From: Flavobacterium sp. H122
GTDB lineage: Bacteria; Bacteroidota; Bacteroidia; Flavobacteriales; Flavobacteriaceae
Direction of reading: 5' to 3'
Assembly (NCBI RefSeq): GCF_004959765.1
Contig: NZ_SJZD01000005.1
Span: 113,543-177,542 of the forward strand
Length of the DNA stretch: 64,000 bases
Each line of letters begins with the position of its first letter. Position 1 is the stretch's first letter. Under the pieces are notes generated by a model. The model searched no databases, was not told where the DNA came from, and worked only from the letters and a program-made list of their open reading frames with translations. The translations under genes and the position numbers were made by a program. Shown here in pieces: positions 13,577 to 26,541 of this stretch.

Positions 13577-16500
13577 TTAATCTATTACTATTTCTGCTAA
13601 GTTTTCATTTTGTTTTACTTTCCCTAATTGAATGGTTTGCAATTTCTTTTCAATTTTACCATTCTTATTGATATAAACCTCAACCATTACTGTTGTTGGT
13701 CCATTTTCACTTAAACTATTTTCTCCATAAAAATTGGTTTTGATTTGAAATTTGCCCTTTACTGCATTACGAAGTAAATATTGCTCTGGCCCATACCCTT
13801 GCGTAAAATCTTTGGAAAATTTTGCCCCAATTTCGGTACCAGTATGGCCATAATAACATTCTTCATTTGTTGGTTCAATAACATGCAAATCAATATCTGT
13901 ATCCATTAAATTCCAATTCAAAATAATTCTAACCGCAACTGGCATTTTATTCAAATATTTTTTATCCAATTTATTTGTATCAATGGATGGATGTGCTGAA
14001 ATTATCCTGTTTATATCCATCAAAATAATATCTTCCACTCCTTCATATTGACCACTCATATTTCCAAAATAGTTCACCTGAAGCGCTTTCAATAATTCAT
14101 TAAAACCTGCTTGATATTGTTTATTATCTTCTAAACTTAAACCAAGATCACGGTGACTTTGTGGCTCAAATGGTCTCCATTTCACAACTTGGTTTGCAGT
14201 AAAAAGTGCATCTTCATAAGCTTCCCATTGACGTAGCTGATACGTTAATGACTTATATAATTGATGATTTTCCAGACCTAAATCAGCTATATTACTCAAA
14301 ATTAGTAATGCCTTTTGCTTATCTCCAATACTATAAAAATAGTTAGCCACATCAAAATAGAAACTAGGATTATTTAGTTGCTCATCCCTTAACTGCATGT
14401 AAACTGCATATTTTTTATCTATTGGAGCCCCATCAATTGCCTTTAGGTAAATTCTATCTGGATTCCATGAATTGACTTTGATATTTACCATTTGTTCACG
14501 ACCATAATCAAATACTCCACTTAAAGAATCTCTTAAAACTACGCCTGAGGAAACACCAATTGCTGCATTATTTGAAATTTGAATACCCGCTACGCTTCCT
14601 GACAATGGTTGGACAACATTATTGGAATCATTTTCTTCTAGAGATTTAGCAGAAACTGACTCTGTTGAATAACTCACAGACCGCTCTCTTCTAACACCTA
14701 CAGCGGTTACGACAACTTCACTTAATTGAGCGCTATTATCAACTAAACTTACATTATAAACACTGGCATTACCTAAAGTGATCTCTTTAGATTCCATTCC
14801 CATAAAAGAAAACTCTAACTTCTCCCCTACATTTGCGTTTATAGAATATGTTCCGTCAAATGCCGTACTTACTCCTCTGGTTGTCCCCTTTACAACCACA
14901 TTAGCACCTGGCAACGGACCTGAAGAATCAGAAACAACACCCGTAATTGTACCATTAGCCACCCCACTTGAAGTAACACTTCCAACGCCTCTATTTCTAT
15001 CTGTGTTTGTATTGATTACCTTTTTGGGTTTTATAACTTTCTTTGGTTTAGGAATCTCATACTTTATATTTTTATTCCACCATGAAGTAATTGAATTATG
15101 ATATTCTTCAATATTATCCCAATTATCTTTTTGCTCTGCTAATCTATTTTCCCTTTGTTGTTTTATAATTTTATCATATTCATCTCTCAATTCTACTGGA
15201 GGCAAAATATCATATAGAATATAATCGTTGATATCTTCTAAAACGATCAAAGAGGTATTTTGAGTTATGATACCGTATTTTTTGCCCAAATTTTCTATTT
15301 CGTCAGCATTTTCTTTATACTGGATTTCGAGATTGGCAATTTTCTTTTGCGCCCAAAGTTTTTCAATACTAACTTCATTGGATAAATTGTTTTTTGCATC
15401 AATAATTACTTTTTTTTCTAAAACTGGATTACTGTCATAACCAAAAAGTAAAGTCATTTCGTTTTGTGGCTTTAACGAAATTCCGGAAATACTAAAGCTG
15501 CCTGAAACTGGTGAACCAATCATTGGATATATTTCAGTTACTAAATAGTTTTCCTTTATTCCTAAAAATTTTAAATTTTGGTACATCAGTTTTTCTAAAG
15601 CTTTATCAATATCCAACGTATTCAAATTGATAAAACTTCCGGCACTTTTCATTGAATTGTAATTCATAAAAGCATAATCAGCTGATGCCAATGAAGTAAT
15701 TGTATAAACCGGTTTACTTATTTTTCCTAATTCATTACTACTAAGAGATGAAAGTCCATCAGTAAAAAATAAATACTCATCATGAATTGGTAATTTAATT
15801 TTTGAGAAACGTGTTCCCCCGTCATAAACAATATGTTCTAACTTTTCTTTCAATAACTCCCAATTACCGTTCGAAATATCATAAGTTCCTGCTTTTTCAA
15901 AATCATAAGACAATAAATATAAAGTCACTTTTGTATTTTGCAATTTTTTAAAATAATTATCCAAAAGATTCAATTCTTTTTTCAAATCACGATTCTTACA
16001 ACTTAATGAATTGTCCCAGATTAAACCTATCGTATTAGCATTCTTTTTAAGCCTTTTCTCATTCTCCACAACCATATTGGAATAAAAATAATGCTGATTG
16101 TTAACAGACTGCACTACCACACTTGGAATTTCCTGTTGAATGGGAATTTTAATGATAAATTTTTCAGATGGCTGATAATTTTCTTTTTTAATCGATGTTT
16201 GATAGGATTGATTCCAACTTATTTCGTTAGATTTTTCAATACTATTATCATTAATTGTTGGAACTGAAACCGCTCCGACTATAGTAATATTCAATTCAAA
16301 TTTTTCCAATTTTCTGGAATAACTACTTACCAATTGATATGCTAAATTAGTTTTATCAAAACTTGCCAGTTCCTCTTCATAACCAATAATCACAATTCTT
16401 TCTTTATTAGGAAGTATAGGGTAAATTCTTGTTTTAAAATTATTCCCTTCTACTTTTTCAAGTAATCCTGGATCAACTCGGCGATGAATTACAGCCTCAA

Positions 16501-16813
16501 AAACTTGTTTCCCTTTATTTTTATTTACAGGAACTGCTTCTCTCATTTTATTGTTAATATCAATTGCATAACGGGAAACAGAAACACCTTCAGGTAACGG
16601 GAACAATAATTCTGCTTCCATTTGTCTATTACTACTATTTGTAAAATGCATTTCTGCGGTTGTATAGGCAATATTTCCAACAATCTTGACATTAACCAAT
16701 AATTGGCTCATCTTTACTTGAAGTGAATCTCCTTCTTTTATATGTAATTGTGGACTTTGTGCTTTGGTAATGAAACCAGATAAAAACAACAAAATAAATA
16801 GCGCTTTTTTCAT
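13577..16813 (-). CDS. VIT/vWA protein fused to carboxypeptidase-like, plug-like and DUF2135 domains
   Basis: The protein has 1078 residues with signal peptide MKKALFILLFLSGFITKAQ. A VIT domain covers about 25-135 (AELLFPLPEGVSVSRYAIDIN, then VFEAVIHRRVDPGLLE). A vWA-like domain lies at about 260-420 (GLIWDNSLSC, LFFTDGLSSL), without a perfect metal-site DxSxS. A carboxypeptidase-D regulatory-like beta domain (about 618-700, TITGVVSDSSGPLPGANVVV) is followed by VVVTAVG and a short TonB-plug-like stretch (about 705-770). Helical repeats (about 795-930) precede a C-terminal DUF2135 domain (about 955-1060, NWNLMDTDIDLHVIEP). It is probably an exported adhesion or envelope protein; function unknown. 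A fragment of a paralogue lies at 25400-25471. Confidence 0.88.
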   Translation of the reverse strand: MKKALFILLFLSGFITKAQSPQLHIKEGDSLQVKMSQLLVNVKIVGNIAYTTAEMHFTNSSNRQMEAELLFPLPEGVSVSRYAIDINNKMREAVPVNKNKGKQVFEAVIHRRVDPGLLEKVEGNNFKTRIYPILPNKERIVIIGYEEELASFDKTNLAYQLVSSYSRKLEKFELNITIVGAVSVPTINDNSIEKSNEISWNQSYQTSIKKENYQPSEKFIIKIPIQQEIPSVVVQSVNNQHYFYSNMVVENEKRLKKNANTIGLIWDNSLSCKNRDLKKELNLLDNYFKKLQNTKVTLYLLSYDFEKAGTYDISNGNWELLKEKLEHIVYDGGTRFSKIKLPIHDEYLFFTDGLSSLSSNELGKISKPVYTITSLASADYAFMNYNSMKSAGSFINLNTLDIDKALEKLMYQNLKFLGIKENYLVTEIYPMIGSPVSGSFSISGISLKPQNEMTLLFGYDSNPVLEKKVIIDAKNNLSNEVSIEKLWAQKKIANLEIQYKENADEIENLGKKYGIITQNTSLIVLEDINDYILYDILPPVELRDEYDKIIKQQRENRLAEQKDNWDNIEEYHNSITSWWNKNIKYEIPKPKKVIKPKKVINTNTDRNRGVGSVTSSGVANGTITGVVSDSSGPLPGANVVVKGTTRGVSTAFDGTYSINANVGEKLEFSFMGMESKEITLGNASVYNVSLVDNSAQLSEVVVTAVGVRRERSVSYSTESVSAKSLEENDSNNVVQPLSGSVAGIQISNNAAIGVSSGVVLRDSLSGVFDYGREQMVNIKVNSWNPDRIYLKAIDGAPIDKKYAVYMQLRDEQLNNPSFYFDVANYFYSIGDKQKALLILSNIADLGLENHQLYKSLTYQLRQWEAYEDALFTANQVVKWRPFEPQSHRDLGLSLEDNKQYQAGFNELLKALQVNYFGNMSGQYEGVEDIILMDINRIISAHPSIDTNKLDKKYLNKMPVAVRIILNWNLMDTDIDLHVIEPTNEECYYGHTGTEIGAKFSKDFTQGYGPEQYLLRNAVKGKFQIKTNFYGENSLSENGPTTVMVEVYINKNGKIEKKLQTIQLGKVKQNENLAEIVID

Positions 16814-16892
16814 ATTATTAAATTTTGGGCGTTACAAATAAACTCCTTTTCTTATATAGAGGGAAATTTTTATTAAAAAGTTGGGACGATTT

Positions 16893-16922
16893 AAAAAAAA
16901 AACCAGCCTCACAGCTGGTTTT
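16893..16922 (-). terminator. Intrinsic terminator after the exonuclease gene
   Basis: On the minus strand AAAACCAGC pairs with GCTGGTTTT around TGTGAG, followed by a run of T. It begins immediately after the stop codon of the exonuclease gene. Confidence 0.85.
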
Positions 16923-16923
16923 A

Positions 16924-17469
16924 TCATTTCAAAATCTCCCTTAAAATCTTTGCGATATTTTTAGCATCATCTACACCTCTATGATGTGTACCTTCTAATG
17001 GGATGTCTAAAAATTTTAGTGCGCTATCCATACCTAATTCATGACCTAATTTGTTTTTGAGTGCAAACAAAGTTTTCACGTTGATGTGTGAAGGACTAAA
17101 GGGATACCCTTTACCCAAATCCTGACATTGCCTTTGAAATTGCTTCAAATCATAAGCGCCAAAACTTGCCCAAGCCCTGCTTTGACTCATATAGTCTTTT
17201 TTTAAGATACGTAAAGCTTCTTCAAAGGAAACGGCTTCTTGTGCTATCAATTCGGGAGTTATTGTTGTTAACTCGGTACAAAACGGACTTATCGTTGAGC
17301 GTTCTGGTTTTACTAAAATACCTTTATTATCGGTTATTTCACCAGTTTCGACATCCAGCAAACAAACGCCTACTTCAATAATATCATTAGTCATACCTTC
17401 AGGTAACTTGCCTTCCCAACACGTGGCTTCAATATCGACCACGAGTATTTTATCTAATAATTTTGCCAT
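16924..17469 (-). CDS. DEDD-type 3'-5' exonuclease
   Basis: The protein has 181 residues. Exo I motif VVDIEATCW carries the first Asp-x-Glu, SFGAYDLKQFQRQC is Exo II, and HHRGVDDAKNIAKIL is Exo III with the final His and Asp (DEDDh). The closest named relatives are KapD/ERI-1-like exonucleases, which act on RNA or DNA 3' ends. It is a single gene with its own terminator. The substrate is not predictable from sequence. Confidence 0.88.
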   Translation of the reverse strand: MAKLLDKILVVDIEATCWEGKLPEGMTNDIIEVGVCLLDVETGEITDNKGILVKPERSTISPFCTELTTITPELIAQEAVSFEEALRILKKDYMSQSRAWASFGAYDLKQFQRQCQDLGKGYPFSPSHINVKTLFALKNKLGHELGMDSALKFLDIPLEGTHHRGVDDAKNIAKILREILK

Positions 17470-17484
17470 AATTTTTATCTTTTG

Positions 17485-17531
17485 TTAACAGAGTTTCACA
17501 AAGTTTAACACAAAGTCACACGAAGTTTTTT
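17485..17531. repeat. Interspersed CACAAAGTTT-type repeat, copy 1
   Basis: The stretch ACAGAGTTTCACAAAGTTTA followed by ACACAAAGTCACACGAAGTT has a near-copy at 18128-18174. The two copies flank the TPR gene in direct orientation. Adjacent bases 17535-17565 carry the CACTGTGACTGCAAACTGAA-type repeat seen elsewhere in the window. Confidence 0.6.
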
Positions 17532-17568
17532 TAGAACCACAACACTGTGACTGCAAACTGAACACTGA

Positions 17569-18111
17569 TTACTTCTTATCTTTTTTATCTTTCTTTTTTT
17601 CCGATTTTTTCTTATTCGGTTTTTTCTTTTCTTTTAAAAGGTCTTTTTTGTTTTTAATCCTTTTTTCAATTTCTTCTATTGCGTGCAAATGAGTTGAGTT
17701 ATCAAGGATTTTAGCCTCTTTGATTAATTTGGAAGCTTCTTTCCAATTGCGTTGGATTTCTAAAAGACGAATCTTTTTCAGCAACATAAGCGGTTTGTCA
17801 ATTCCTTTGATGGTCAAGGCAAATTCAATCAGCTTCAACGCTTCCTCATAATCTTCATTCTGCAACAGGACATCGGCATAATAAGGATATACGGCTAAGG
17901 CATGAATATCCGCAGCTAATGCTTCCGCATAATATTGTTTCGCAGTTTCATAATCCTGCAATTGCTCGGTATGAAACCTGCCGTAAAGCCATAAGGCCGT
18001 GACGTTTTTATTGTCATACGCCAAGGCATAGCCCAGCGATTCCAACGTCCCTTCAAGCCAATACGGATAATTATCCAAGGCTTGCACTACATATTTATCT
18101 ATTGATTGCAT
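17569..18111 (-). CDS. TPR-like protein with lysine-rich tail
   Basis: The protein has 180 residues from ATG at 18111; a longer frame would need a TTG at 18144 inside repeat DNA. It holds tetratricopeptide-like helical pairs (about residues 30-130, for example YETAKQYYAEALAAD and YEEALKLIEFALTI). It ends in an extremely basic tail of Lys with Glu and Asp (last 25 residues), which could bind nucleic acid. It probably mediates protein contacts in the cytoplasm; no specific role is known. Direct repeats flank it on both sides. Confidence 0.75.
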   Translation of the reverse strand: MQSIDKYVVQALDNYPYWLEGTLESLGYALAYDNKNVTALWLYGRFHTEQLQDYETAKQYYAEALAADIHALAVYPYYADVLLQNEDYEEALKLIEFALTIKGIDKPLMLLKKIRLLEIQRNWKEASKLIKEAKILDNSTHLHAIEEIEKRIKNKKDLLKEKKKPNKKKSEKKKDKKDKK

Positions 18112-18127
18112 ATTTTTATTATTTAGT

Positions 18128-18174
18128 TTCACAGAGTTGGACAAAGTTTAAACACAAAGTCTCACAAAGTTTTT
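18128..18174. repeat. Interspersed CACAAAGTTT-type repeat, copy 2
   Basis: CACAGAGTTGGACAAAGTTT followed by AAACACAAAGTCTCACAAAG resembles 17485-17531 in the same orientation. Confidence 0.6.
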
Positions 18175-18219
18175 CACTATTCATTCTTTACTTTTTAAAC
18201 CTTATCCTTCTGTTTATTT

Positions 18220-18328
18220 AACCGCAAGGTTCGCAAACCCGATAGCTATCGGAATACGCTAAGTTCGCTAAGAACTTTACTAATTTTTACTTTGCGCTCA
18301 TTGCAATTTCTTTGCGTACTTTGCGGTT
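18220..18328. repeat. 109-bp inverted-repeat element with inner palindrome
   Basis: The left arm AACCGCAAGGTTCGCAAA (18220-18237) is the reverse complement of the right arm TTTGCGTACTTTGCGGTT (18311-18328) at 16 of 18 positions. Next to the left arm is the perfect palindrome CCGATAGCTATCGG (18239-18252). The right arm overlaps the stop codon of prfH. It looks like a REP-like or miniature element, and its transcript would fold strongly at the 3' end of the operon. Confidence 0.75.
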
Positions 18329-19022
18329 ATTCATTCCACAACTGACTTTTCAAATTACTCTTAAGTTGCTGTCTTTCTTTTTTAAAATTTTTAATTCTTC
18401 TATCACTTTTAAAATCGGTTCCTTCAAAAATCCGGATAGGATTACCACGTTCAATTTGCATTTGGTTCATCCAAACATCTTGAAACTGTTGTTGCATTTG
18501 AACTTTTTCATATTCCAGTAACTTTTGAAATAAGCGTTCGGTTGCCAGTTTTTTATTTTGATGTTGTGAACGCGAATCCATGCTCACCACAGCGACTCCC
18601 GTAGGAATGTGCGTCGCACGAATAGCCGAACTCACTTTGTTCACGTGTTGTCCTCCAGCTCCGGAACTTCGCATCGCTTGATACTGAATGTCTTTTTCAT
18701 CAATCGCTACTTTATTTCCTGAATGAATTTCAAAAATTCCTATGAACCAATTTTTTCTTTTGTGAAATTTTCTGATTGTACTTTGCCCAATCCATTGAAT
18801 AGTTCCTATCCAACTGGTCACAAAATCATCAGCCTTTTTCCCTTTAATGGAAACGATAGCCGAAACCACCGTTCCATTTTCCTGTCCTCCTTCGCGATGG
18901 AGCACTTCGGTTTCCAACTTCATTTCTTCCGCTTCAACCAGCAGACGTTTTAATACTTGAGCCACTACCCAATCGCATTCTGCAGGACCTCTACCTGAGG
19001 TTATTTGTATCATCTTTTCCAT
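18327..19022 (-). CDS. prfH: Peptide chain release factor homologue PrfH
   Basis: The protein has 231 residues. The catalytic GGQ motif (residues 123-125, [11 protein letters not shown]) releases nascent peptides by hydrolysing peptidyl-tRNA. It lacks the long codon-recognition domains of RF1 and RF2. A basic C-terminal tail ([18 protein letters not shown]) resembles rescue factors that enter the mRNA channel. PrfH is known from other bacteria to act with RtcB2, releasing peptides from ribosomes cut at the decoding centre so that the 16S rRNA can be resealed. Here it follows rtcB with a single base between them. Confidence 0.9.
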
Positions 19023-19023
19023 A

Positions 19024-20415
19024 CTACCTGTCCATTCTTACAATTTTAGGTGTAAAAGTTCCTAATACATCCACCAATTCCGTTTGCAAACTCATCACTT
19101 TGTTAATGTCTTTGTAGGCCATAGGCGCCTCGTCGATATTGCCGCCAATTAAAGTCACCTCATTGTCTGCCAAAACTTTTTTAATTTGGCTTTGTGTAAA
19201 AGATGCTTTACACTTTGCTCTCGAAAACAATCGGCCTGCACCATGAGAAGCAGAATTTAAACTTTCGGCATTGCCTTTACCCATTACAATGAATCCTGGA
19301 GCGGTCATTGAACCTGGAATTATTCCCAGTTGTCCCTCACCCGCTGGCGTAGCGCCTTTGCGATGCACGATACATTCTTTTCCGTCGACCATTTCTTTCC
19401 ATGCAAAATTGTGATGGTTTTCGATGGTCACTACAATACGCTTACCTAAGGCTTTAGCGATTCGGCGGTGAATGTCTTCGTGACACGCTTTAGCATAATC
19501 GCCTGCTAAATTCATTGCCATCCAATATTCTTGTCCGTCATGAGTATTCAGATCTAACCAAGCTAGATGTTGCACATTTTTAGGCAACGGACATTGTTTT
19601 GTAGCCAAATACGTGTAATGTTTTGCAATATTGGCCCCTAATCCGCGTGAACCGCTGTGCGACAAAACTGCCAGATATTCTTTGGGTTCCAGTTTCCATT
19701 CTGGAAGTGGATTATCCAGCTTTACCACTCCAAATTCCACAAAGTGATTACCACCACCCGACGTTCCTAATTGCTTGTATGCCTTGTCCAGCAACTGCTT
19801 TACCACTGGAATATCTTTGAATTCGCTTCGGTAAAAAACCTCATGATCTGCTTTGATTTTGTGGATTTCGGTCATACCAAATTTCGTATTGTCTTTCAAA
19901 ATTGCCTGCAACTGATGGTCTTTCCCTTTTAGAAATGTCGCTGGCAAATCGAAAATTGACAAACTCATTCGGCATCCAATATCAACTCCTACTCCGTAAG
20001 GAATTACCGCGTTATCTGTTGCCAATACTCCGCCAATTGGTAATCCATACCCTGAATGTGCATCAGGCATTAAAGCACCTTTTACTGCAATTGGCAATTT
20101 TAAAGCATCGTACAATTGGAATTTAGCTTGTTCTGCTATTTCATTCTCTCCAAAGATTGAAAAAGGAGCTCGAGTGTTCATCAACTGATTGAATTTTACC
20201 TGAACTGGGTTTACTAAACCTTCTGCAACTTTCCCCCAAGTGCCGTGTCCTTTGAATTTTTCAGGATCTAACAATACTTCTTTTGCTTCTGTAAGTATTG
20301 CTTCCTTTTTTTCTCTTTTTCTATATCTATTGATTTGCCCTAAAGCAATATTGATAGCATTGTTCTTAGGGAAACCTATTTTAATTAGGTCTTTCCCTGA
20401 TAATTTATTTCCCAT
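19024..20415 (-). CDS. rtcB: RtcB-family RNA ligase (RtcB2 type, ribosome repair)
   Basis: The protein has 463 residues. RtcB seals RNA ends bearing 2',3'-cyclic phosphate or 3'-phosphate to 5'-OH using GTP and Mn2+. Metal-site motifs [23 protein letters not shown] and [10 protein letters not shown] are present, along with ENHHNFAW. The guanylylated His lies in [14 protein letters not shown] (about residue 392). Pairing with prfH points to repair of 16S rRNA rather than tRNA splicing. No good promoter is visible in the 100 bp before the start. Transcription probably enters from upstream, through the leader ORF and terminator at 20507-20660. Confidence 0.93.
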
Positions 20416-20506
20416 AAATTTAAAATTGAATAATACACTGTCCTTTCAAAAGCGATGGCTCTTGATTGGATTTCTGATTTATCAGTCTCGGGAAAGTTTA
20501 ATGCAT

Positions 20507-20539
20507 AAAAAAACCCGAAACTAGATGTCTTCGGGTTTT
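20507..20539 (-). terminator. Intrinsic terminator between leader ORF and rtcB
   Basis: On the minus strand AAAACCCGAAG (20539-20529) pairs with TTTCGGGTTTT (20520-20510) around an 8-nt loop, followed directly by more T. It lies 23 bp after the leader ORF stop and 91 bp before the rtcB start, so it would stop transcription before rtcB unless prevented. Confidence 0.88.
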
Positions 20540-20561
20540 ATCATATAGTGAAGTTTTTTAT

Positions 20562-20645
20562 CTAACTTAAAGTAAAACCACGAAGAGTAGCTACACCAGC
20601 TCCCGCTGATTGGTAACCATAATTTGTTAGATTGAATACAAACAT
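20562..20645 (-). CDS. 27-residue putative leader peptide of rtcB-prfH
   Basis: ATG at 20645 follows the purine-rich AAAACGAAGAAAAAA and the frame ends in TAG at 20564-20562. The peptide begins MFVFNLTNYGYQSAG and ends ATLRGFTLS. It has no signal peptide, membrane segment or run of a single amino acid like those in classical biosynthetic leaders. Codons for Leu-Arg-Gly-Phe overlap the antiterminator strand. It is likely to matter as a translated sensor rather than as a protein. It is not similar to anything I recognise. Confidence 0.6.
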   Translation of the reverse strand: MFVFNLTNYGYQSAGAGVATLRGFTLS

Positions 20646-20682
20646 TTTTTTCTTCGTTTTAATTGTTATTAATTTTCGGAGA

Positions 20683-20714
20683 CAAATTTTCTAAATTATT
20701 TCTTTAATATCCAA
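20683..20714 (-). promoter_or_regulatory. Possible promoter for the leader and rtcB-prfH
   Basis: On the minus strand TTG (20714-20712) is 21 nt from AAAATTTG (20690-20683), which matches TAnnTTTG except at the first base. Spacing fits the TTG-N17-23-TAnnTTTG rule for flavobacteria. The remaining stretch up to 20968 shows no gene or strong structure. Confidence 0.35.
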
Positions 20715-20968
20715 ATGGTTACTGAAATTTTTATTCAGTCTAAAGAAACTGTTTTGTTTTTCAGTTAATAATTAATCATTTTCAAGCCATTGAAATTTAG
20801 TCGCAAACTCATTAATTTACCGTTACTCCAACTTTTCAAAAAAACTTTTAATTATTCGTTTTTTAATACAAAAAGAATTAAAACTTAAGTTTTATGTATT
20901 CTAATTCATACAATTTTGTAACAAAAAAGACTTTTTGCGTCTACTTACAAATCATTAATCAAACTTTC

Positions 20969-22078
20969 ATGAAAAAACTAATGACCTCTGGGTCAAAAAT
21001 TTCAAGGTTCAGTAAAATATTCCAAATTGCTTTACTGTTTCTTATCACCTTTTCTACAAAATCCCAATCTCAAAAAAACAGCCAATCGATTGAAATCAAT
21101 GCAAAAAAAGACAGGATTGAGGAAGAACGTTTCATCACCATTAACGGAATAGAGCAATGGGTAACCATCAAAGGTAATCCTTCAAAACCAGCGATATTAT
21201 TTCTTCATGGTGGACCGGGAAGCCCTATCAGTCCTTATTCCCATATTTTATATGGACCATTAGAAAAAGATTTCATCATCATACAATGGGACCAGCGAGG
21301 AGCAGGCAAAACCTTTGGCCGTATTGCACCTCCTGAATTATCACCCGAATATTTGAAAGCAAACCCTTTAACAGTGGATCAAATCTCAAACGATGGGATT
21401 GCGCTTACTGAATACTTAGCCAAATACCTTGGGAAGCAAAAAATAACACTTTTTGGAACTTCATGGGGTTCCGTATTAGGTGTAAGAATGGCTTCAAAAC
21501 GTCCTGACCTATTCAACGCTTACGTAGGACATTCACAAGTTGTAAATGAAACAGACAATGAAGGCAAAACGTATCAAAAAATAACTGATATGGCACAAAA
21601 AGCTAATGATCAGCAATCGTTGGAAATCTTAAAGACTATTGGCACTCCACCTTACAGTCAGGCAAGAAATACAGGTAAATTTTACCGAGTTATTAAAAAA
21701 TACGAACGAAAAAATTCTATTCCTGCACCCGATTCATGGTTTGTATTGGCTCCAGCTTACAACAATGATACTGACATAAAAAACAGTGCCGATGGAGACG
21801 ATTATTCTTTTGTGAATTTTGTTGGAGACAGTAAACTTGGTGTCAAGCCAATGACAGCTAACATTGATAATCTTAGGGATTATACAGAATTTAAAATACC
21901 AATTTATTTTATTCAGGGAGAAGAAGACATTTTAACTCCTGCCGAAAGTACCAAAGCTTATTTTGAAAAAATAAAAGCTCCTTCGAAAAAATATATTCCG
22001 CTCGCTAAAACTGCTCATGGTTTTAATCAGGCTGTACTTGATACACAATATAAATTGTTCAGAGAAATAAACAATTAA
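20969..22078 (+). CDS. Alpha/beta hydrolase, proline iminopeptidase-like (S33), exported
   Basis: The protein has 369 residues from ATG at 20969, which gives a basic N-terminus and a hydrophobic segment (IFQIALLFLITFSTKSQSQ) as a signal peptide or anchor. An upstream in-frame ATG at 20894 would bury this segment. The oxyanion motif is HGGPGSP, the nucleophile elbow is GTSWGS, the acid is probably in GEEDILTP, and the His is in KTAHGFNQ. This matches prolyl aminopeptidase-type S33 hydrolases. The substrate is uncertain. It is followed by a strong bidirectional terminator. Confidence 0.85.
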   Translation: MKKLMTSGSKISRFSKIFQIALLFLITFSTKSQSQKNSQSIEINAKKDRIEEERFITINGIEQWVTIKGNPSKPAILFLHGGPGSPISPYSHILYGPLEKDFIIIQWDQRGAGKTFGRIAPPELSPEYLKANPLTVDQISNDGIALTEYLAKYLGKQKITLFGTSWGSVLGVRMASKRPDLFNAYVGHSQVVNETDNEGKTYQKITDMAQKANDQQSLEILKTIGTPPYSQARNTGKFYRVIKKYERKNSIPAPDSWFVLAPAYNNDTDIKNSADGDDYSFVNFVGDSKLGVKPMTANIDNLRDYTEFKIPIYFIQGEEDILTPAESTKAYFEKIKAPSKKYIPLAKTAHGFNQAVLDTQYKLFREINN

Positions 22079-22100
22079 AAAAATCTGTTTTAAAAATAAT

Positions 22101-22131
22101 AAAAAAGACCAACTTATCAGTTGGTCTTTTT
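22101..22131. terminator. Bidirectional intrinsic terminator
   Basis: AAAAAGACCAACT pairs with AGTTGGTCTTTTT around a 4-nt loop. It lies between the convergent hydrolase gene and the gene ending at 22168. Confidence 0.85.
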
Positions 22132-22167
22132 ACTATAAACGGTTTAACATGATACGCTGTTCTGCAT

Positions 22168-22497
22168 TTAATTATGATGAAAAACGGGAACATCATGCCA
22201 TTTTTCGGCAAGTTGGGCAATATTTGCTTTCATTAAATCTTCAGCTGTCATTGCGATTCTGAATTCACAATGTGCTTCAAAAATCAAAAACCAAGGTTCA
22301 GCAATGGAAGGGATTGAAGACGCATCCTTAACATCAACAATCATTACTGCTCCACGATTACCATCTTGTTCAGAAAAATAAATACTTTCTGGTTTAATTT
22401 CTTCAATAATTCTATTAAGTAGTTCACCTACAGAACCGTTTCTCACCATCGAATTAAAAGGTTCAATTGGTAAAACAACATTGACTAACATTTTCAT
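22168..22497 (-). CDS. Small conserved hypothetical protein
   Basis: The protein has 109 residues from ATG at 22497; an upstream in-frame ATG at 22548 would add an unusual 17-residue extension. It starts MKMLVNVVLPIEPFNSMVRNG, followed by beta-alpha-beta segments (IYFSEQDGNRGAVMIVDVKD, then PWFLIFEAHCEFRIAMT). This suggests a ferredoxin-like fold as in small dimeric isomerase- or monooxygenase-like proteins. No catalytic assignment can be made. Confidence 0.7.
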   Translation of the reverse strand: MKMLVNVVLPIEPFNSMVRNGSVGELLNRIIEEIKPESIYFSEQDGNRGAVMIVDVKDASSIPSIAEPWFLIFEAHCEFRIAMTAEDLMKANIAQLAEKWHDVPVFHHN

Positions 22498-22584
22498 AAC
22501 AATTGATTTTAAATTAATTCTTAAAGTTACAAAAACATACTGAGCCAACCATAAATAAATACCTAAATATCAGTTAATTAAAAA

Positions 22585-23145
22585 TCAAAACAACACTTCA
22601 ACAGCTTCTATCGCCAATAAAAATGAAATAGGTGCTACTTCTTCAAAAAAATCAATTTCTATTTCGTGAGGTAAAAAATCAGAGATTATTCGGACAATAA
22701 GATCTTGCGGTTTTTTCAGATACATAAAAGTGTAATCTTCCATATTTACTACCGTTTGGACAGCAAGATCAGTAGTTCTAACAAATTTATCTGAAGTTAA
22801 AGAATGTAAACTCGGCAGATTAGTTTTTGAGTTGACCTCTATTGGCTTACCATTTTCAAATAAACCTCCTTCATAACCATATAATGATGCATTTGTTATT
22901 TCAATAGGCTTCCCCATTCCTAAATGTGATGGCAATTCTCTTTCTTTTCCTACAACTGCCGCAAACCCCATCAAAATACAAACGTCGTGTGGGGGTAATT
23001 GCATCATTGATTTAGCAGTACTTTCCCTTCCTATTCCAGAAACGACAATTTGGTAAGAATGTTTTAAATCAGAAATTTGAGATAAAGCGGCAATTACTTT
23101 CTCTTTTTCAATCTCCATTGGAGTCAAAATAATTATTTTCTTCAT
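22585..23145 (-). CDS. Nucleosidase/phosphorylase-superfamily-like protein
   Basis: The protein has 186 residues. The start MKKIIILTPMEIEKEKVIAAL and the segments VVSGIGRESTAKSMM and CILMGFAAVVG resemble the opening strands of MTA/SAH nucleosidases and nucleoside phosphorylases. It is about 40 residues shorter than usual. The C-terminal NMEDYTFMYL resembles the substrate-binding M-E segment, but the usual final S-D-x-A is not evident, so activity is uncertain. It may be a divergent or accessory member. It is followed 87 bp later on the same strand by the gene starting at 22497. Confidence 0.65.
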   Translation of the reverse strand: MKKIIILTPMEIEKEKVIAALSQISDLKHSYQIVVSGIGRESTAKSMMQLPPHDVCILMGFAAVVGKERELPSHLGMGKPIEITNASLYGYEGGLFENGKPIEVNSKTNLPSLHSLTSDKFVRTTDLAVQTVVNMEDYTFMYLKKPQDLIVRIISDFLPHEIEIDFFEEVAPISFLLAIEAVEVLF

Positions 23146-23218
23146 TTTTAAAAAAGCTATAAAGCCAACAAAGATAAATGTGTTTGCAAAATACTATTCA
23201 AAAAAAGAAAGTTATATT

Positions 23219-24127
23219 TTAAATCCATTTTTCCTGCTCTTTATACCCTTCTCTAAAGTAAGTAAGATATTGAACCATTCGAGGTTTACTTCCATTGTTA
23301 GCCGTAGCACAATGTGGCAATGCCTGATTCCAAATAACCATATCTCCAGTGTTCCCAATAATAGGAATTGGCTTCAACATTTCTAAAGCGTAATCTCTGG
23401 GATGTTTATCAGTTGGTACATTTGACATCCACTCATTTATATCACGATGAAAACCTGGCACACAATGAAAAGCGCCTTCTAGAGGTCCACAATCAGAAAG
23501 GTAAATAAGTCCTTGCAAACGGAAAGGAATAGGCAATTGCAAGCTCACATCCCAATGCAGATTACTTCCTTTAAAAGAATATTTAGAAGTAACGGGTGGA
23601 TTAAAACTAACTTTATCTATAGTCTTGTAGATTTGTTCCGATTGATACAGTTGTTCGTAGGCTTTTTTTATACGGGCAGAAGCTCTGTTTTTTTCCAAAA
23701 CAGGGTGATCAAAAAAATTGACCATTAATCCCTTTTGTTCAGGATGATCTTTATACCAAGACGCACTATCATCTGGATCCATCTCTAAAAAATCCCAAAT
23801 TATATTTTGTGTTGCCATACAATCCTCTTTAGAAATTGCATTTTTAAGCACAAAATATCCATTGGTTTCAAAAAAATGTAAATCACTTTCAGTCAACACT
23901 AATTTCTCATCTTCATTACAAACCATTAACTTGGCTGCTTTTTCTTCAATCCAAGTCTCGAATTCGATTACTGAAGGCTTTTCAAAATACAAATACTGCA
24001 AAGCTTCATCCAATCCAATACCATTCTTATACAATTGTTCTAATTCTTCTGACCAACTGACTGTTGCATATGATTCTCCTTCTAAAATTCTGTTCCTCAG
24101 TGAAGTCAAAACTGGATTTGCTGCCAT
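23219..24127 (-). CDS. Phytanoyl-CoA dioxygenase (PhyH) family protein
   Basis: The protein has 302 residues. The N-terminal 80 residues are helical and of unknown role. The double-stranded beta-helix core starts at NGYFVLKNAISKEDC. The iron-binding His-x-Asp is in LHWDVSLQLP (about residue 188-190), and the distal His is in LPHCATANNGSKPRMVQYL with a following Arg for 2-oxoglutarate. GAFHCVPGFHRDINEW is typical of the family. It is an Fe(II)/2-oxoglutarate oxygenase with unknown substrate. A second, unrelated-looking PhyH protein lies at 43359. Confidence 0.85.
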   Translation of the reverse strand: MAANPVLTSLRNRILEGESYATVSWSEELEQLYKNGIGLDEALQYLYFEKPSVIEFETWIEEKAAKLMVCNEDEKLVLTESDLHFFETNGYFVLKNAISKEDCMATQNIIWDFLEMDPDDSASWYKDHPEQKGLMVNFFDHPVLEKNRASARIKKAYEQLYQSEQIYKTIDKVSFNPPVTSKYSFKGSNLHWDVSLQLPIPFRLQGLIYLSDCGPLEGAFHCVPGFHRDINEWMSNVPTDKHPRDYALEMLKPIPIIGNTGDMVIWNQALPHCATANNGSKPRMVQYLTYFREGYKEQEKWI

Positions 24128-24181
24128 TTTATATAATGTTAAGTGCTATTCAAAAATATGAAATCCTAATTATGTTTTTCC

Positions 24182-24189
24182 TATTTTTG
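24182..24189 (+). promoter_or_regulatory. -7 promoter element immediately before the aminotransferase start
   Basis: TATTTTTG lies only 4 bp before the ATG at 24194. With usual spacing, transcription would begin at or next to the start codon, implying a leaderless mRNA. Confidence 0.55.
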
Positions 24190-24193
24190 CATC

Positions 24194-25321
24194 ATGTCAA
24201 AATTACCCAATATCACAACCAGTATTTTCTCTGTAATGTCGCAATTAGCGAACCAACACGGAGCTATAAATCTATCACAAGGTTTTCCTAATTTTCCTGA
24301 AGATGAGCGTTTGCTGCAAATCTCACAACGCCTTATCCAAGAAAACATCCATCAATATACTCCTATGGCAGGTTTACCTTCACTAATGGAAAAAATTGCA
24401 CAGCAAACAGCGAAGCAATATGTCAGAAATGTTGACATTGCTACTGAAATGTTAATCACTGCGGGAGCTACACAAGGTGTTTTTACCACTATTAATACTT
24501 TTGTTTCTGCCGGTGATGAAGTTATTATATTGGATCCAAGTTATGACAGTTATGAGCCATCGGTTTTAGTGGCTGGTGGAAAACCTGTTAGAGTATCATT
24601 AAATAATGATTACACCCCTAATTTTAACAAAATAGAGGATGCTATCACTTCAAAAACAAAGATGATAGTAATCAACAACCCTCATAATCCTACGGGACGA
24701 ATTTGGACTGAAAGTGATTTTGTAGCATTAGAAGATATTTTAGAAAAACATCCTCAAATTCTAATCTTAGGAGATGAAGTTTACGAATATATTACTTTCA
24801 CACAACCTCATATTTCATTCAATACAAGAGAAAAGTTGAAACATAGAACAATTGTCGCTTCTTCTTTTGGAAAATCATTGCATGTAACGGGCTGGAAAGT
24901 TGGTTACTTAATTGCTCCGGAAAATTTAATGTACGAAATGAAAAAAGTACATCAATTTTTAGTTTTCAGCGTAAACAGTTTTTCACAACATGCCATTGCT
25001 GAATACCTAGATGTTGTTGACTTCAGTGAAGTTTCAAGAATGTACCAACGTAAACGCGATTTATTTCAGTCGTTATTAAAGGATAGCCGATTTGAATTAA
25101 TGCCTTGTGACGGAACGTATTTCCAGGTGGTCAATTACAGTGGAATTTCTACACAAAATGATGTGGACTTTGCTAAAGAATTAATCACTACTCATGGCGT
25201 GGCAGCAATTCCAATTTCGGTTTTTTACAATGATGCTACAGACAGACACATGCTTCGTTTTTGTTTTGCCAAAACTGATGAAACCTTAATTGCAGCTGCT
25301 GAAAAACTAATTAAAATCTAA
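24194..25321 (+). CDS. Methionine aminotransferase (YbdL/KAT-like)
   Basis: The protein has 375 residues and belongs to the class I/II PLP aminotransferases. INLSQGFPNFPED and HQYTPMAGLPSLMEKIA are hallmarks of the methionine/kynurenine aminotransferase subgroup. NNPHNPTGRIW, GDEVYEYITF and the PLP lysine in SFGKSLHVTGWK complete the active site. It probably transaminates 2-oxo-4-methylthiobutanoate to methionine, the last step of methylthio salvage, though glutamine or aromatic donors are possible. The N-terminus MSKLPNITTSIFSVM is conserved, so the start next to the promoter is probably real. Confidence 0.9.
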   Translation: MSKLPNITTSIFSVMSQLANQHGAINLSQGFPNFPEDERLLQISQRLIQENIHQYTPMAGLPSLMEKIAQQTAKQYVRNVDIATEMLITAGATQGVFTTINTFVSAGDEVIILDPSYDSYEPSVLVAGGKPVRVSLNNDYTPNFNKIEDAITSKTKMIVINNPHNPTGRIWTESDFVALEDILEKHPQILILGDEVYEYITFTQPHISFNTREKLKHRTIVASSFGKSLHVTGWKVGYLIAPENLMYEMKKVHQFLVFSVNSFSQHAIAEYLDVVDFSEVSRMYQRKRDLFQSLLKDSRFELMPCDGTYFQVVNYSGISTQNDVDFAKELITTHGVAAIPISVFYNDATDRHMLRFCFAKTDETLIAAAEKLIKI

Positions 25322-25332
25322 CATTCAACCAT

Positions 25333-25363
25333 AAAAAAACACCAACAAATTGTTGGTGTTTTT
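25333..25363 (+). terminator. Intrinsic terminator after the aminotransferase
   Basis: AAAACACCAACAA pairs with TTGTTGGTGTTTTT around a minimal loop, ending in T5. The A-rich left side could make it bidirectional. Confidence 0.85.
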
Positions 25364-25399
25364 CCGCTAAAATCACAATGGTAATGAGTATAATGATGG

Positions 25400-25471
25400 T
25401 TAGTTTAAAGTGATTTCAGCTAGATTTTGATTTTCTTTTACTGTTCCCAATTGAGATAGAAATATTTTCAT
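25400..25471 (-). pseudogene. Remnant of a VIT/DUF2135 gene C-terminus
   Basis: The minus strand encodes KIFLSQLGTVKENQNLAEITLN then stop in two parts: KIFLSQLGTVKENQ and NLAEITLN. The end of the gene at 13577 reads KKLQTIQLGKVKQNENLAE then IVID. They align from the KxQxxQLG-like start to the stop. The upstream bases 25534-25546 (reverse complement GTCCCAACCTTTT) also resemble GTCCCAACTTTTT at 16876-16888, upstream of the large gene. This looks like a paralogue with its middle deleted. The rest of 25364-25659 holds no gene. Confidence 0.7.
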
Positions 25472-25659
25472 AGACATTCTAACAATTATCAAAAAACTCA
25501 ACCTTTTACTTACTTAAGAGTGCAATTTCACACAAAAGGTTGGGACACTATATTTTTTTTTATTTTTTTTCTTCAAATTGAATCGTACACTTCCTAAATC
25601 ATTCAATTCTTACATAATAATTTTAGTAAATTTACTTCTCATTCAAAAAACTAAAAACT

Positions 25660-26541
25660 ATGGATTTAGCAGCAAAAATGCTTAGAGATAATGCTTTAGC
25701 AGACAAAGTCATTGTTGTAACCGGCGGTGGCAGCGGTTTGGGAAAAGCGATGACCAAATATTTTATGGAACTTGGTGCGAAAGTAGCCATAACATCCCGT
25801 GATTTAGAGAAACTAAAAGCTACCGCCCAAGAATTAGAGACTGAAACCAAAGGAAAATGTCTAGCATTGCAATGTGATGTGCGTTATTATGATCAGGTAG
25901 AAACCATGCTTGACAATGTTTTGAAAGAATACGGAAAAGTAGATGTATTACTGAACAATGCAGCAGGTAATTTCATATCACCAACTGAAAGATTATCGGC
26001 CAATGCCTGGGACACCATTATAGATATTGTTTTAAAAGGTTCCAAAAACTGCACATTGGCATTTGGAAAACATTGGATTGACAAAAAACAGACCAATACA
26101 AATATCCTAAACATTGTAACCACTTATGCCTGGACAGGTTCTGCTTATGTAGTTCCAAGTGCTACGGCAAAAGCAGGTGTGCTGGCCATGACACGCAGTT
26201 TAGCAGTGGAATGGGCAAAATACGGTATCCGAACCAACGCAATTGCACCGGGACCATTTCCTACCAAAGGAGCTTGGGACCGATTACTACCGGGTGATTT
26301 AAAAGAGAAATTCGATCTGGCAAAGAAAGTCCCTTTAAAACGTGTGGGTGAACATCAGGAATTAGCTAATTTAGCTGCTTATTTAGTTTCAGATTTCTCT
26401 GCTTATGTTAATGGAGAAGTCATTACCATTGATGGCGGCGAATGGCTTCAGGGAGCTGGACAATTCAATCTTCTGGAAGCCATACCAACAGAACTTTGGG
26501 ACATGCTTGAAGCAATGATTAAATCCAAAGGAAATAAATAA
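25660..26541 (+). CDS. SDR oxidoreductase, 2,4-dienoyl-CoA reductase-like
   Basis: The protein has 293 residues. TGGGSGLGKAM binds NADP(H), with SRD after the second strand favouring NADPH, and LLNNAAGNF is the NNAG-type motif. The catalytic Tyr-x-x-x-Lys of classical SDRs is replaced by SATAKAGV, as in mitochondrial-type 2,4-dienoyl-CoA reductases that use a different Tyr. NAIAPGPFPTKGAWDRL follows. It probably reduces 2,4-dienoyl-CoA during degradation of unsaturated fatty acids. It is a single gene. Confidence 0.87.
   Translation: MDLAAKMLRDNALADKVIVVTGGGSGLGKAMTKYFMELGAKVAITSRDLEKLKATAQELETETKGKCLALQCDVRYYDQVETMLDNVLKEYGKVDVLLNNAAGNFISPTERLSANAWDTIIDIVLKGSKNCTLAFGKHWIDKKQTNTNILNIVTTYAWTGSAYVVPSATAKAGVLAMTRSLAVEWAKYGIRTNAIAPGPFPTKGAWDRLLPGDLKEKFDLAKKVPLKRVGEHQELANLAAYLVSDFSAYVNGEVITIDGGEWLQGAGQFNLLEAIPTELWDMLEAMIKSKGNK

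Follow-up and report, generated by a model that had tools for sequence, protein, structure and literature searches.

How do cells sense broken ribosomes before they repair them? The question bears on the rtcB-prfH operon of Flavobacterium sp. H122, which lies behind a short open reading frame (ORF) and a terminator. Repair by PrfH and RtcB has reportedly been described by Tian et al. in 2022. In trp-type amino-acid attenuators, the strands of the leader RNA pair as 1:2, 2:3 and 3:4, and a ribosome at the stop codon blocks strand 2. We consider it likely that the operon is preceded by a ribosome-controlled transcription attenuator of this type, or of the type of PA5471.1 from Pseudomonas aeruginosa, so that expression of rtcB-prfH would depend on ribosomes finishing a leader of about 27 codons; the comparative evidence, drawn from sequence, strongly supports such an attenuator. 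In the window, i.e., the whole stretch of 64,000 nucleotides that was analysed, the following parts were found:

20683–20715, minus strand: probable promoter, with a –33 TTTG (20715–20712) and a –7-like box AAAATTTG (20690–20683), recognised by eye
20652–20657, minus strand: strand 1 (ACGAAG, within AAAACGAAG at 20660–20652), just before the leader ATG, with strand 2 as its pairing partner
20562–20645, minus strand: leader ORF MFVFNLTNYGYQSAGAGVATLRGFTLS, 27 codons plus the stop codon TAG
20574–20585, minus strand: strand 2 CTTCGTGGTTTT, the antiterminator strand within the ORF; covaries with strands 1 and 3
20529–20539, minus strand: strand 3 AAAACCCGAAG, the 5' arm of the terminator; covaries with strand 2
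20507–20539, minus strand: intrinsic terminator predicted from sequence (3:4 plus U-tract; strand 4 at 20520–20510)
20485–20492, minus strand: strand 5 CCCGAGAC, which can pair with strand 4 after readthrough; from the minimum free energy (MFE) fold of the full leader
19024–20415, minus strand: rtcB, PrfH-associated RNA ligase (Pfam PF01139, E=3.7e-83)
18327–19022, minus strand: prfH, peptide chain release factor H (NCBIfam TIGR03072, 238 bits, cut-off 167)
17569–18144, minus strand: TPR-repeat gene (Pfam TPR), probably the third gene of the operon

Direct reading of the minus strand places the leader ORF, the strands, the terminator and the gap of 91 bp between terminator and rtcB ATG (20415) exactly where the preliminary description had put them, and the pairing of AAAACCCGAAG with CTTCGTGGTTTT over 11 bp with one bulged T as well as the competing strand before the ATG are present as it described. 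Strand 5, the probable promoter at 20715–20683 and the occurrence of the leader before other genes go beyond that description. The upstream neighbour gene (20894–22078) lies on the plus strand and runs the opposite way, so that it does not end in this terminator. When positions 15000–26000 of the window were searched against Rfam at E≤5, the leader was overlapped by AgrB alone (23.6 bits vs. a gathering score of 40, E=2.4), and at the gathering score ten loci gave only a tRNA (L151) and a Flavo-1 RNA (L015), both off the leader. The latter (RF01705, 44.9 bits) is located at L015:3038–3117 (+), between leader and rtcB and on the strand opposite to the operon.

With regard to transcription, TAnnTTTG is described as the flavobacterial –7 box (PMC9723704), and our promoter scan covered this type only. 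Of 98 leaders, 49 carry an exact copy in the 90 nt before strand 1 (5.7 expected from mononucleotide shuffles), mostly around –65 or between –35 and –42, and a single one carries it in the 90 nt that follow the terminator (shuffle expectation 5.05). For this box, the counts do not contradict the earlier impression that rtcB has no recognisable promoter of its own. In the window, the –7-like box AAAATTTG differs from the consensus by one mismatch, and transcription probably starts near 20678, about 20 nt upstream of strand 1.

The leader is widespread among relatives. A pattern of strand 1, ATG, CTTCG, CCGAAG...TTCGG and a T-run finds it at 18 of the 22 rtcB loci of the first set. At L032 and L037 the upstream sequence is too short to judge, and L013 and L014, both with no prfH in view, have no leader directly upstream of rtcB; the genome of L013 carries one ahead of a PcfJ gene (L252). 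Where other genes precede rtcB, the leader keeps its position at the front of the operon (L007/L112, L011/L113, L259, L261). Both the short ORF and the complementary strands are hence retained upstream of rtcB-prfH in close relatives, a check that the preliminary description had proposed.

Genome-wide searches tie the leader to PrfH. Covariance model R1, built from 12 aligned leaders with helices 1:2 and 3:4 supplied, gave 28 matches of at least 54 bits in 28 of 397 Flavobacteriaceae genomes, while at E≤0.01 something, mostly background, was matched in 172 of the 397. PrfH, counted as present at E≤1e-40, occurs in 30 of the same genomes, and a same-strand leader lies 126–3770 nt upstream of prfH in all 30. 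Among these leaders R1 reaches at least 54 bits in 25 and scores 50.2, 43.6 and 42.7 bits in G215, G423 and G245, respectively; those of G095 and G440 were found by reading the loci and score 52.3 and 55.5 bits with model R2. Vice versa, PrfH is present in 26 of the 28 genomes with a strong leader, the exceptions being G082 and G127, in which the order is leader, PcfJ-domain gene, rtcB and TPR gene. Across 299 genomes of the window's own genus, a sample scored for the leader only, R2 matches reached 75 bits or more 96 times, in 95 genomes, with a gap below them down to 55 bits. In a 395-genome sample of the phylum, which overlaps the other samples, matches of at least 66 bits and PrfH coincide in 26 of 26 PrfH-positive Flavobacteriales; for G731 and G824, which have PrfH and belong to other orders, no leader match is listed. 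The 49 best-scoring loci (L160–L208, six of them shared with earlier loci) all have rtcB behind the leader; L209–L212 are without rtcB.

Weaker matches were judged by reading 24 regions, a selection that left out L146, L209–L212 and most other weak R1 matches. One dozen contained six leaders (L148, L151–L154, L157) and six non-leaders (L149, L150, L155, L156, L158 and L159, the same as L147); a further dozen at 46–55 bits contained the leaders L249 and L252, and L243–L248, L250, L251, L253 and L254 are without the leader anatomy and resemble ordinary terminators. R1 gave no match at L037, L039 and L042, the last of which (uncultured Bacteroidetes) has rtcB and a partial prfH match. In a survey of other phyla for terminators before PrfH operons (L039–L111), 70 of 73 loci, which are probably those of RF2, had no gene of RtcB size upstream.

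Covariation was analysed in an alignment of 51 leaders (50 distinct) against 500 shuffles, uncorrected for relatedness. Because the alignment was made on 1:2 and 3:4, the tests of these two helices lean towards the model; 2:3 was absent from it. The covariation scores of all three helices were reached by none of the 500 shuffles, and the same holds for the cells with double changes, which number 15 for 1:2 (3.2 in shuffles), 33 for 2:3 (13.5) and 37 for 3:4 (10.9). Paired cells amount to 83.5% over the seven pairs of 1:2, four of which show double changes and the outermost of which is formed in only 5 of 50 leaders, to 92.5% in 2:3 and to 99.2% in 3:4. Less decisive are the number of pairs with double changes, equalled by 3, 42 and 7 of 500 shuffles for 1:2, 2:3 and 3:4, and the number of pair types (80, 104 and 18 of 500). 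Controls with slid registers are lower, with +3 for 1:2 still giving 8 cells and 3 pairs, and the first 12 leaders alone point in the same direction, 1:2 being invariant in five of its six pairs there. By the covariation scores and the double-change cells, the 2:3 and 3:4 stems thus covary, as the preliminary description suggested testing.

A fifth strand follows the terminator in many leaders. Where strand 4 carries CGGG, CCCGA(A/G) follows in 59 of 71 leaders (8 of them also with TCCGA), and where it carries CGGA, TCCGA(A/G) is present in 12 of 27 and CCCGA(A/G) in 2 of 27. By motif, neither type occurs in 25 of 98 leaders, and in the 65 of 98 with exactly one type, this type tracks strand 4 (Fisher 2e-11, relatedness uncorrected). 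For the duplex of strands 4 and 5, p≤0.05 is reached in 34 of the 98 leaders.

Structure prediction agrees with two competing states, the antiterminator 2:3 and the U-tract terminator 3:4 being mutually exclusive by sequence and predicted folds. The 241 nt from 20680 to 20440 fold better than 200 of 200 dinucleotide shuffles (z –4.3); taken by itself, 20655–20506 stands out less (z –2.6, with 3 of 200 shuffles equally good). Folding, as the preliminary description had proposed, recovered both states: the fold ending at the terminator (20655–20506) consists of 1:2 and 3:4, with four strand-1 pairs in the MFE structure (the fold began at 20655), and the longer one (20680–20440) of 2:3 and 4:5, strand 4 pairing with CCCGAGAC at 20492–20485. 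A hairpin within the ORF looked persuasive by eye and was dropped, since it passes p≤0.05 against shuffles in only 22 of 98 leaders.

The effect of translation was modelled by pair probabilities in the 98 leaders, with a ribosome mask of an assumed footprint of about 15 nt on each side of the first base of the P-site codon. When strand 3 has just emerged, 2:3 exceeds a probability of 0.5 in 98 of 98 leaders with the ribosome at the AUG as well as at codon 6, in 89 at codon 10, in 92 with no ribosome and in 1 with the ribosome at the stop codon. Once strand 4 is out, 3:4 does so in all 98 with the ribosome at the stop, where 2:3 exceeds 0.5 in none, in 96 with no ribosome, in 93 at codon 10, in 85 at codon 6 and in 76 at the AUG. 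The window leader has values of 0.99 for 2:3 and 0.01 for 3:4 with the ribosome at the AUG, and of 1.00 and 0.91 for 3:4 with the ribosome at the stop and at codon 6, respectively. In this model, full translation would mean termination in every leader, and an early stall would favour antitermination as strand 3 emerges. As 3:4 is favoured at equilibrium in 76 of 98 leaders even with the ribosome at the AUG, readthrough would have to be kinetically controlled. The logic first proposed for the locus, i.e., readthrough upon an early stall and termination once the stop is reached, thus matches the masked folding, but equilibrium prefers the terminator in most leaders. With no ribosome, 2:3 beats 1:2 at equilibrium once strand 3 emerges (92 of 98), so that the untranslated state may not be fully off; the covarying 1:2 helix, though weaker alone than 2:3, gives a reason why an untranslated leader should end terminated.

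The ORF itself is tied to strand 2 by position. In all 98 leaders it ends 15–30 nt after the start of strand 2 (97 by script, L138 by reading), and the stop codon lies 21 nt past this start in 80 of them, a spacing which, together with the masked folding and its assumed footprint, predicts that the antiterminator strand is hidden while a ribosome occupies the stop. In L138, as read, the ATG overlaps strand 1 and the stop is found at +24, in frame. Stop codons as called are TAG in 75 leaders, TAA in 22 and TGA in 1, and the peptides have 24–30 amino acids. Strand 2 occupies the same frame in 95 leaders as called and in 96 with L138; in L011 and L127 it lies in other frames and the strand is retained, indicating that the RNA and not the peptide is conserved there. 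Constraint on the peptide is weak before strand 2 (pN/pS 0.71 in 43 relatives, 39 of them distinct); for strand 2 itself (0.16) and the part behind it (0.58) the values were discarded as biased, because these relatives were picked by their LRG(L/F)xxS ending.

The demonstrated part of the system comprises its sequence, conservation, covariation, gene linkage and predicted folds. From these we infer leader translation, termination, readthrough, the inducing signal and its link to damage as follows. A ribosome reaching the stop codon would cover much of strand 2, 3:4 would pair and transcription would end before rtcB. If no ribosome is loaded, 1:2 would pair and the terminator would again be favoured. 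A ribosome that initiates and halts early would cover strand 1 and leave strand 2 free for strand 3, so that the polymerase could read through; strand 5 could then pair with strand 4 and keep the terminator from re-forming. RtcB and PrfH would subsequently repair the damaged ribosomes. Ribosomes that start but do not finish the leader would thus probably switch on their own repair genes, in flavobacteria and their relatives. Consistent with the lack of a conserved codon run in the peptides, what is sensed is probably elongation failure in general, e.g., by decoding-centre damage or drug binding; that decoding-centre damage in particular, rather than any elongation failure, acts as the signal is conceivable.

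Other explanations have to be weighed against this attenuator. The ORF and its terminator could form a separate small gene or sRNA, with rtcB being served by its own promoter behind the terminator, and the strength of the terminator and a gap to rtcB of 91 bp in the window and more than 200 bp in some relatives would leave room for that. We hold this to be extremely unlikely, as an exact TAnnTTTG, the one promoter type sought, follows the terminator in 1 of 98 leaders where shuffles lead one to expect 5, as strands 2 and 3 covary, for which a plain terminator would give no reason, and as the leader remains first in the operon where genes precede rtcB (L007/L112, L011/L113, L259, L261). The selection between the folds by a protein or metabolite instead of the ribosome is the least probable reading of all: mutually exclusive folds would suit any selector, but the conserved ORF with its stop at a nearly fixed distance from strand 2 speaks against them, and no Rfam family reaches the gathering score on the leader.

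If a translating ribosome is the selector, it could also report on a specific amino acid or tRNA, as in trp, his or the Gln/Phe codons of PA5471.1, and not on general failure. The strand topology would be the same, the second codon is, by eye, often Phe, Thr or Leu, and codons 3 and 4 of PA5471.1 are described to matter in a cca mutant (PMC13041342). Nevertheless, inspection by eye of the 98 leader peptides revealed no conserved run of one amino acid or regulatory codon, and the weak constraint before strand 2 (pN/pS 0.71, 43 relatives) speaks against such a sensor as well, which we therefore regard as unlikely. In erm-type leaders, the nascent peptide arrests the ribosome with a small-molecule cofactor. 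A comparable arrest by the flavobacterial peptide would fit the recurring MF(V/N/K) starts and the LR(G/D) near the end; however, LR(G/D) stems from the RNA of strand 2, which encodes it, and is gone in the out-of-frame leaders L011 and L127, and an arrest at LRG would presumably cover strand 2 and favour termination, rendering this explanation very unlikely.

A leader-peptide attenuator before such an operon is not without precedent. The preliminary description knew of no such leader for this operon; yet the kind is known from PA5471.1 in front of armZ-prfH of P. aeruginosa (PMC12057347, PMC13041342, PMC3516279), and the principle is not new. PA5471.1 encodes a leader of 13 amino acids about 250 bp upstream of PA5471/armZ (PMC3516279), ArmZ is RtcB-like and PA5470 is prfH (PMC12057347). 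Attenuation relieved by stalled ribosomes was proposed there, with further proof being called for (PMC12057347), ArmZ increases when the leader region is deleted or an amber codon is introduced early (PMC13041342), and armZ is induced by ribosome-targeting antibiotics (PMC12057347, PMC13041342, PMC3516279). Both leaders share a short ORF and a proposed 3:4 terminator before an RtcB-like/PrfH operon, and the flavobacterial one is a widespread variant of this kind in another phylum, with 24–30 instead of 13 amino acids; PA5471.1 is tied to MexXY efflux. Compared with the available descriptions of PA5471.1, it has a covarying strand 1 5' of the ATG and a fifth strand. Judged from sequence, its own features appear to be this strand 1 before the start codon, the fifth strand present in many leaders, a regulon of few genes and, in one genome, its re-use upstream of an AAC(3)-I-like gene; comparative evidence as given here was not seen in the available descriptions of PA5471.1. 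From trp-type leaders it differs by lacking a regulatory codon run, by governing repair genes and by having strand 1 before the start codon.

Further parallels can be drawn. On an E. coli plasmid (NZ_AP023208.1, L294), an RtcB-family/prfH operon follows a leader ORF MTNPLSMTLCRPFQD, the internal CUUUGCAG of which, as read, pairs with CUGCAAGG 5' of the ATG in the same 1:2 topology; by eye, this single leader differs in its sequence, in overlapping a Shine-Dalgarno-like site and in showing no clear U-tract terminator. In vmlR-like resistance genes, leader attenuation is described to set the expression of ribosome-protecting genes, a likeness by description only. For Flavobacterium psychrophilum, a transcriptome study reported signs of leader-peptide attenuation at amino-acid operons and lists 64 structured 5' regions in its supplement (Table S7), among which the present leader may already be included, the term “rtcB” being absent from its main text (PMC9723704). 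RtcB2-PrfH protects E. coli from colicin E3 (PMC9223846), and neither “leader” nor “attenuat” occurs in the available text of that report or of the 2006 paper on the prfH operon (PMC1586002). None of the titles and abstract beginnings returned by searches of open-access literature for a flavobacterial or rtcB/prfH leader describes one outside Pseudomonas. Together with armZ-prfH and single leads elsewhere, the flavobacterial leader suggests that leader-peptide attenuation may be general for RtcB-PrfH operons. Among such leads, all noted by eye, are a different ORF of 10–14 codons with ATATCG(C/T)CCC at PrfH operons of other Bacteroidota (L291 and L292, in both upstream of the operon, and L293 at ~1345–1377), perhaps another leader type, a short ORF MMEFNKHIEKVIGQS about 420–290 nt upstream of rtcB in L042, with a terminator behind it that has a GATTGG/CCAATC alternative, and a short ORF MFVLSVPCRSFLG about 160 nt upstream of rtcB-prfH in L040 (Neisseriaceae).

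The genes behind the leader extend beyond rtcB-prfH. In L143 and L255, prfH follows without an intervening rtcB; homologues of the window's TPR gene (47–55% identity) are the first genes after the leader in L151, L152, L157 and L249, and other loci have PcfJ-domain proteins (PF14284) behind it (L127, L252, L259 and L261 of G127) or a gene of 254–258 amino acids with no Pfam match and no assigned family (L112 and L260). Among 20 genomes from the genus of G082, 16 carry the leader, which is followed by a gene of the latter type in 13 (prfH then in view in 6), by prfH and then rtcB in two (L301, L308) and by a GNAT protein in G082 alone. This protein, a single case, is likely an aminoglycoside acetyltransferase, matching AAC(3)-I (NF033083) with E=1.1e-24 and 87 bits, under the cut-off of 200, and the solved aminoglycoside acetyltransferase meta-AAC0020 with E=9.2e-28. 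G082 has no PrfH match at E≤1e-40, and its leader peptide, as read, resembles those of its congeners' repair operons, so that the leader seems to have been retained while the genes behind it changed. If the AAC(3)-I-like gene acts like its family, one signal would link ribosome repair and aminoglycoside defence. Tentatively, and as a possibility rather than an expectation, the five-strand leader could be an order-wide sensor of ribosomes that initiate without elongating, in which strand 1 would gate on initiation and strand 5 would lock readthrough, and which would command a damage regulon of rtcB, prfH, TPR, PcfJ-domain and other genes, its re-use before the acetyltransferase-like gene reflecting that decoding-centre cleavage and drugs give the same signal. 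Its presence in 30 of 30 and 26 of 26 PrfH-positive genomes and its covarying strands make the leader a firm and mutable test system.

Several neighbouring elements also deserve mention. A protein of about 240–264 amino acids recurs before rtcB/prfH (L112:3596–4372 (–), L260:2401–3165 (–), L292:1871–2590, L039:867–1481, L295–L300, L302–L307); its copy in G311 is 35–41% identical to those of L112, L292 and L039, and it is perhaps an undescribed partner of the repair operon. Between rtcB and prfH, L258:5921–7438 contains a weakly nucleotidyltransferase-like gene and a C45 acyltransferase/hydrolase gene, and L257:4405–5906 is similar by eye (both in reverse strand coordinates). In L152 and in L157 (3986–5000; PF01145, E=2.2e-31 for L157), an SPFH/Band 7 gene follows the leader-TPR gene at a distance of about 1 kb. 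At L037:4593–5921, twelve tRNA genes come after the repair operon, preceded, by eye, by an element of short ORF and terminator. Finally, a second element of short ORF and terminator (L121:1134–1274, L125:1169–1273, L140:1942–2087 (–), L153:3190–3297 (–)) precedes the rtcB leader on its own strand by roughly 230–310 nt; it reads AAAAGCGTCC...GGACGCTTTT or similar, and its ORF contains a GGGCG/GGACGC strand.
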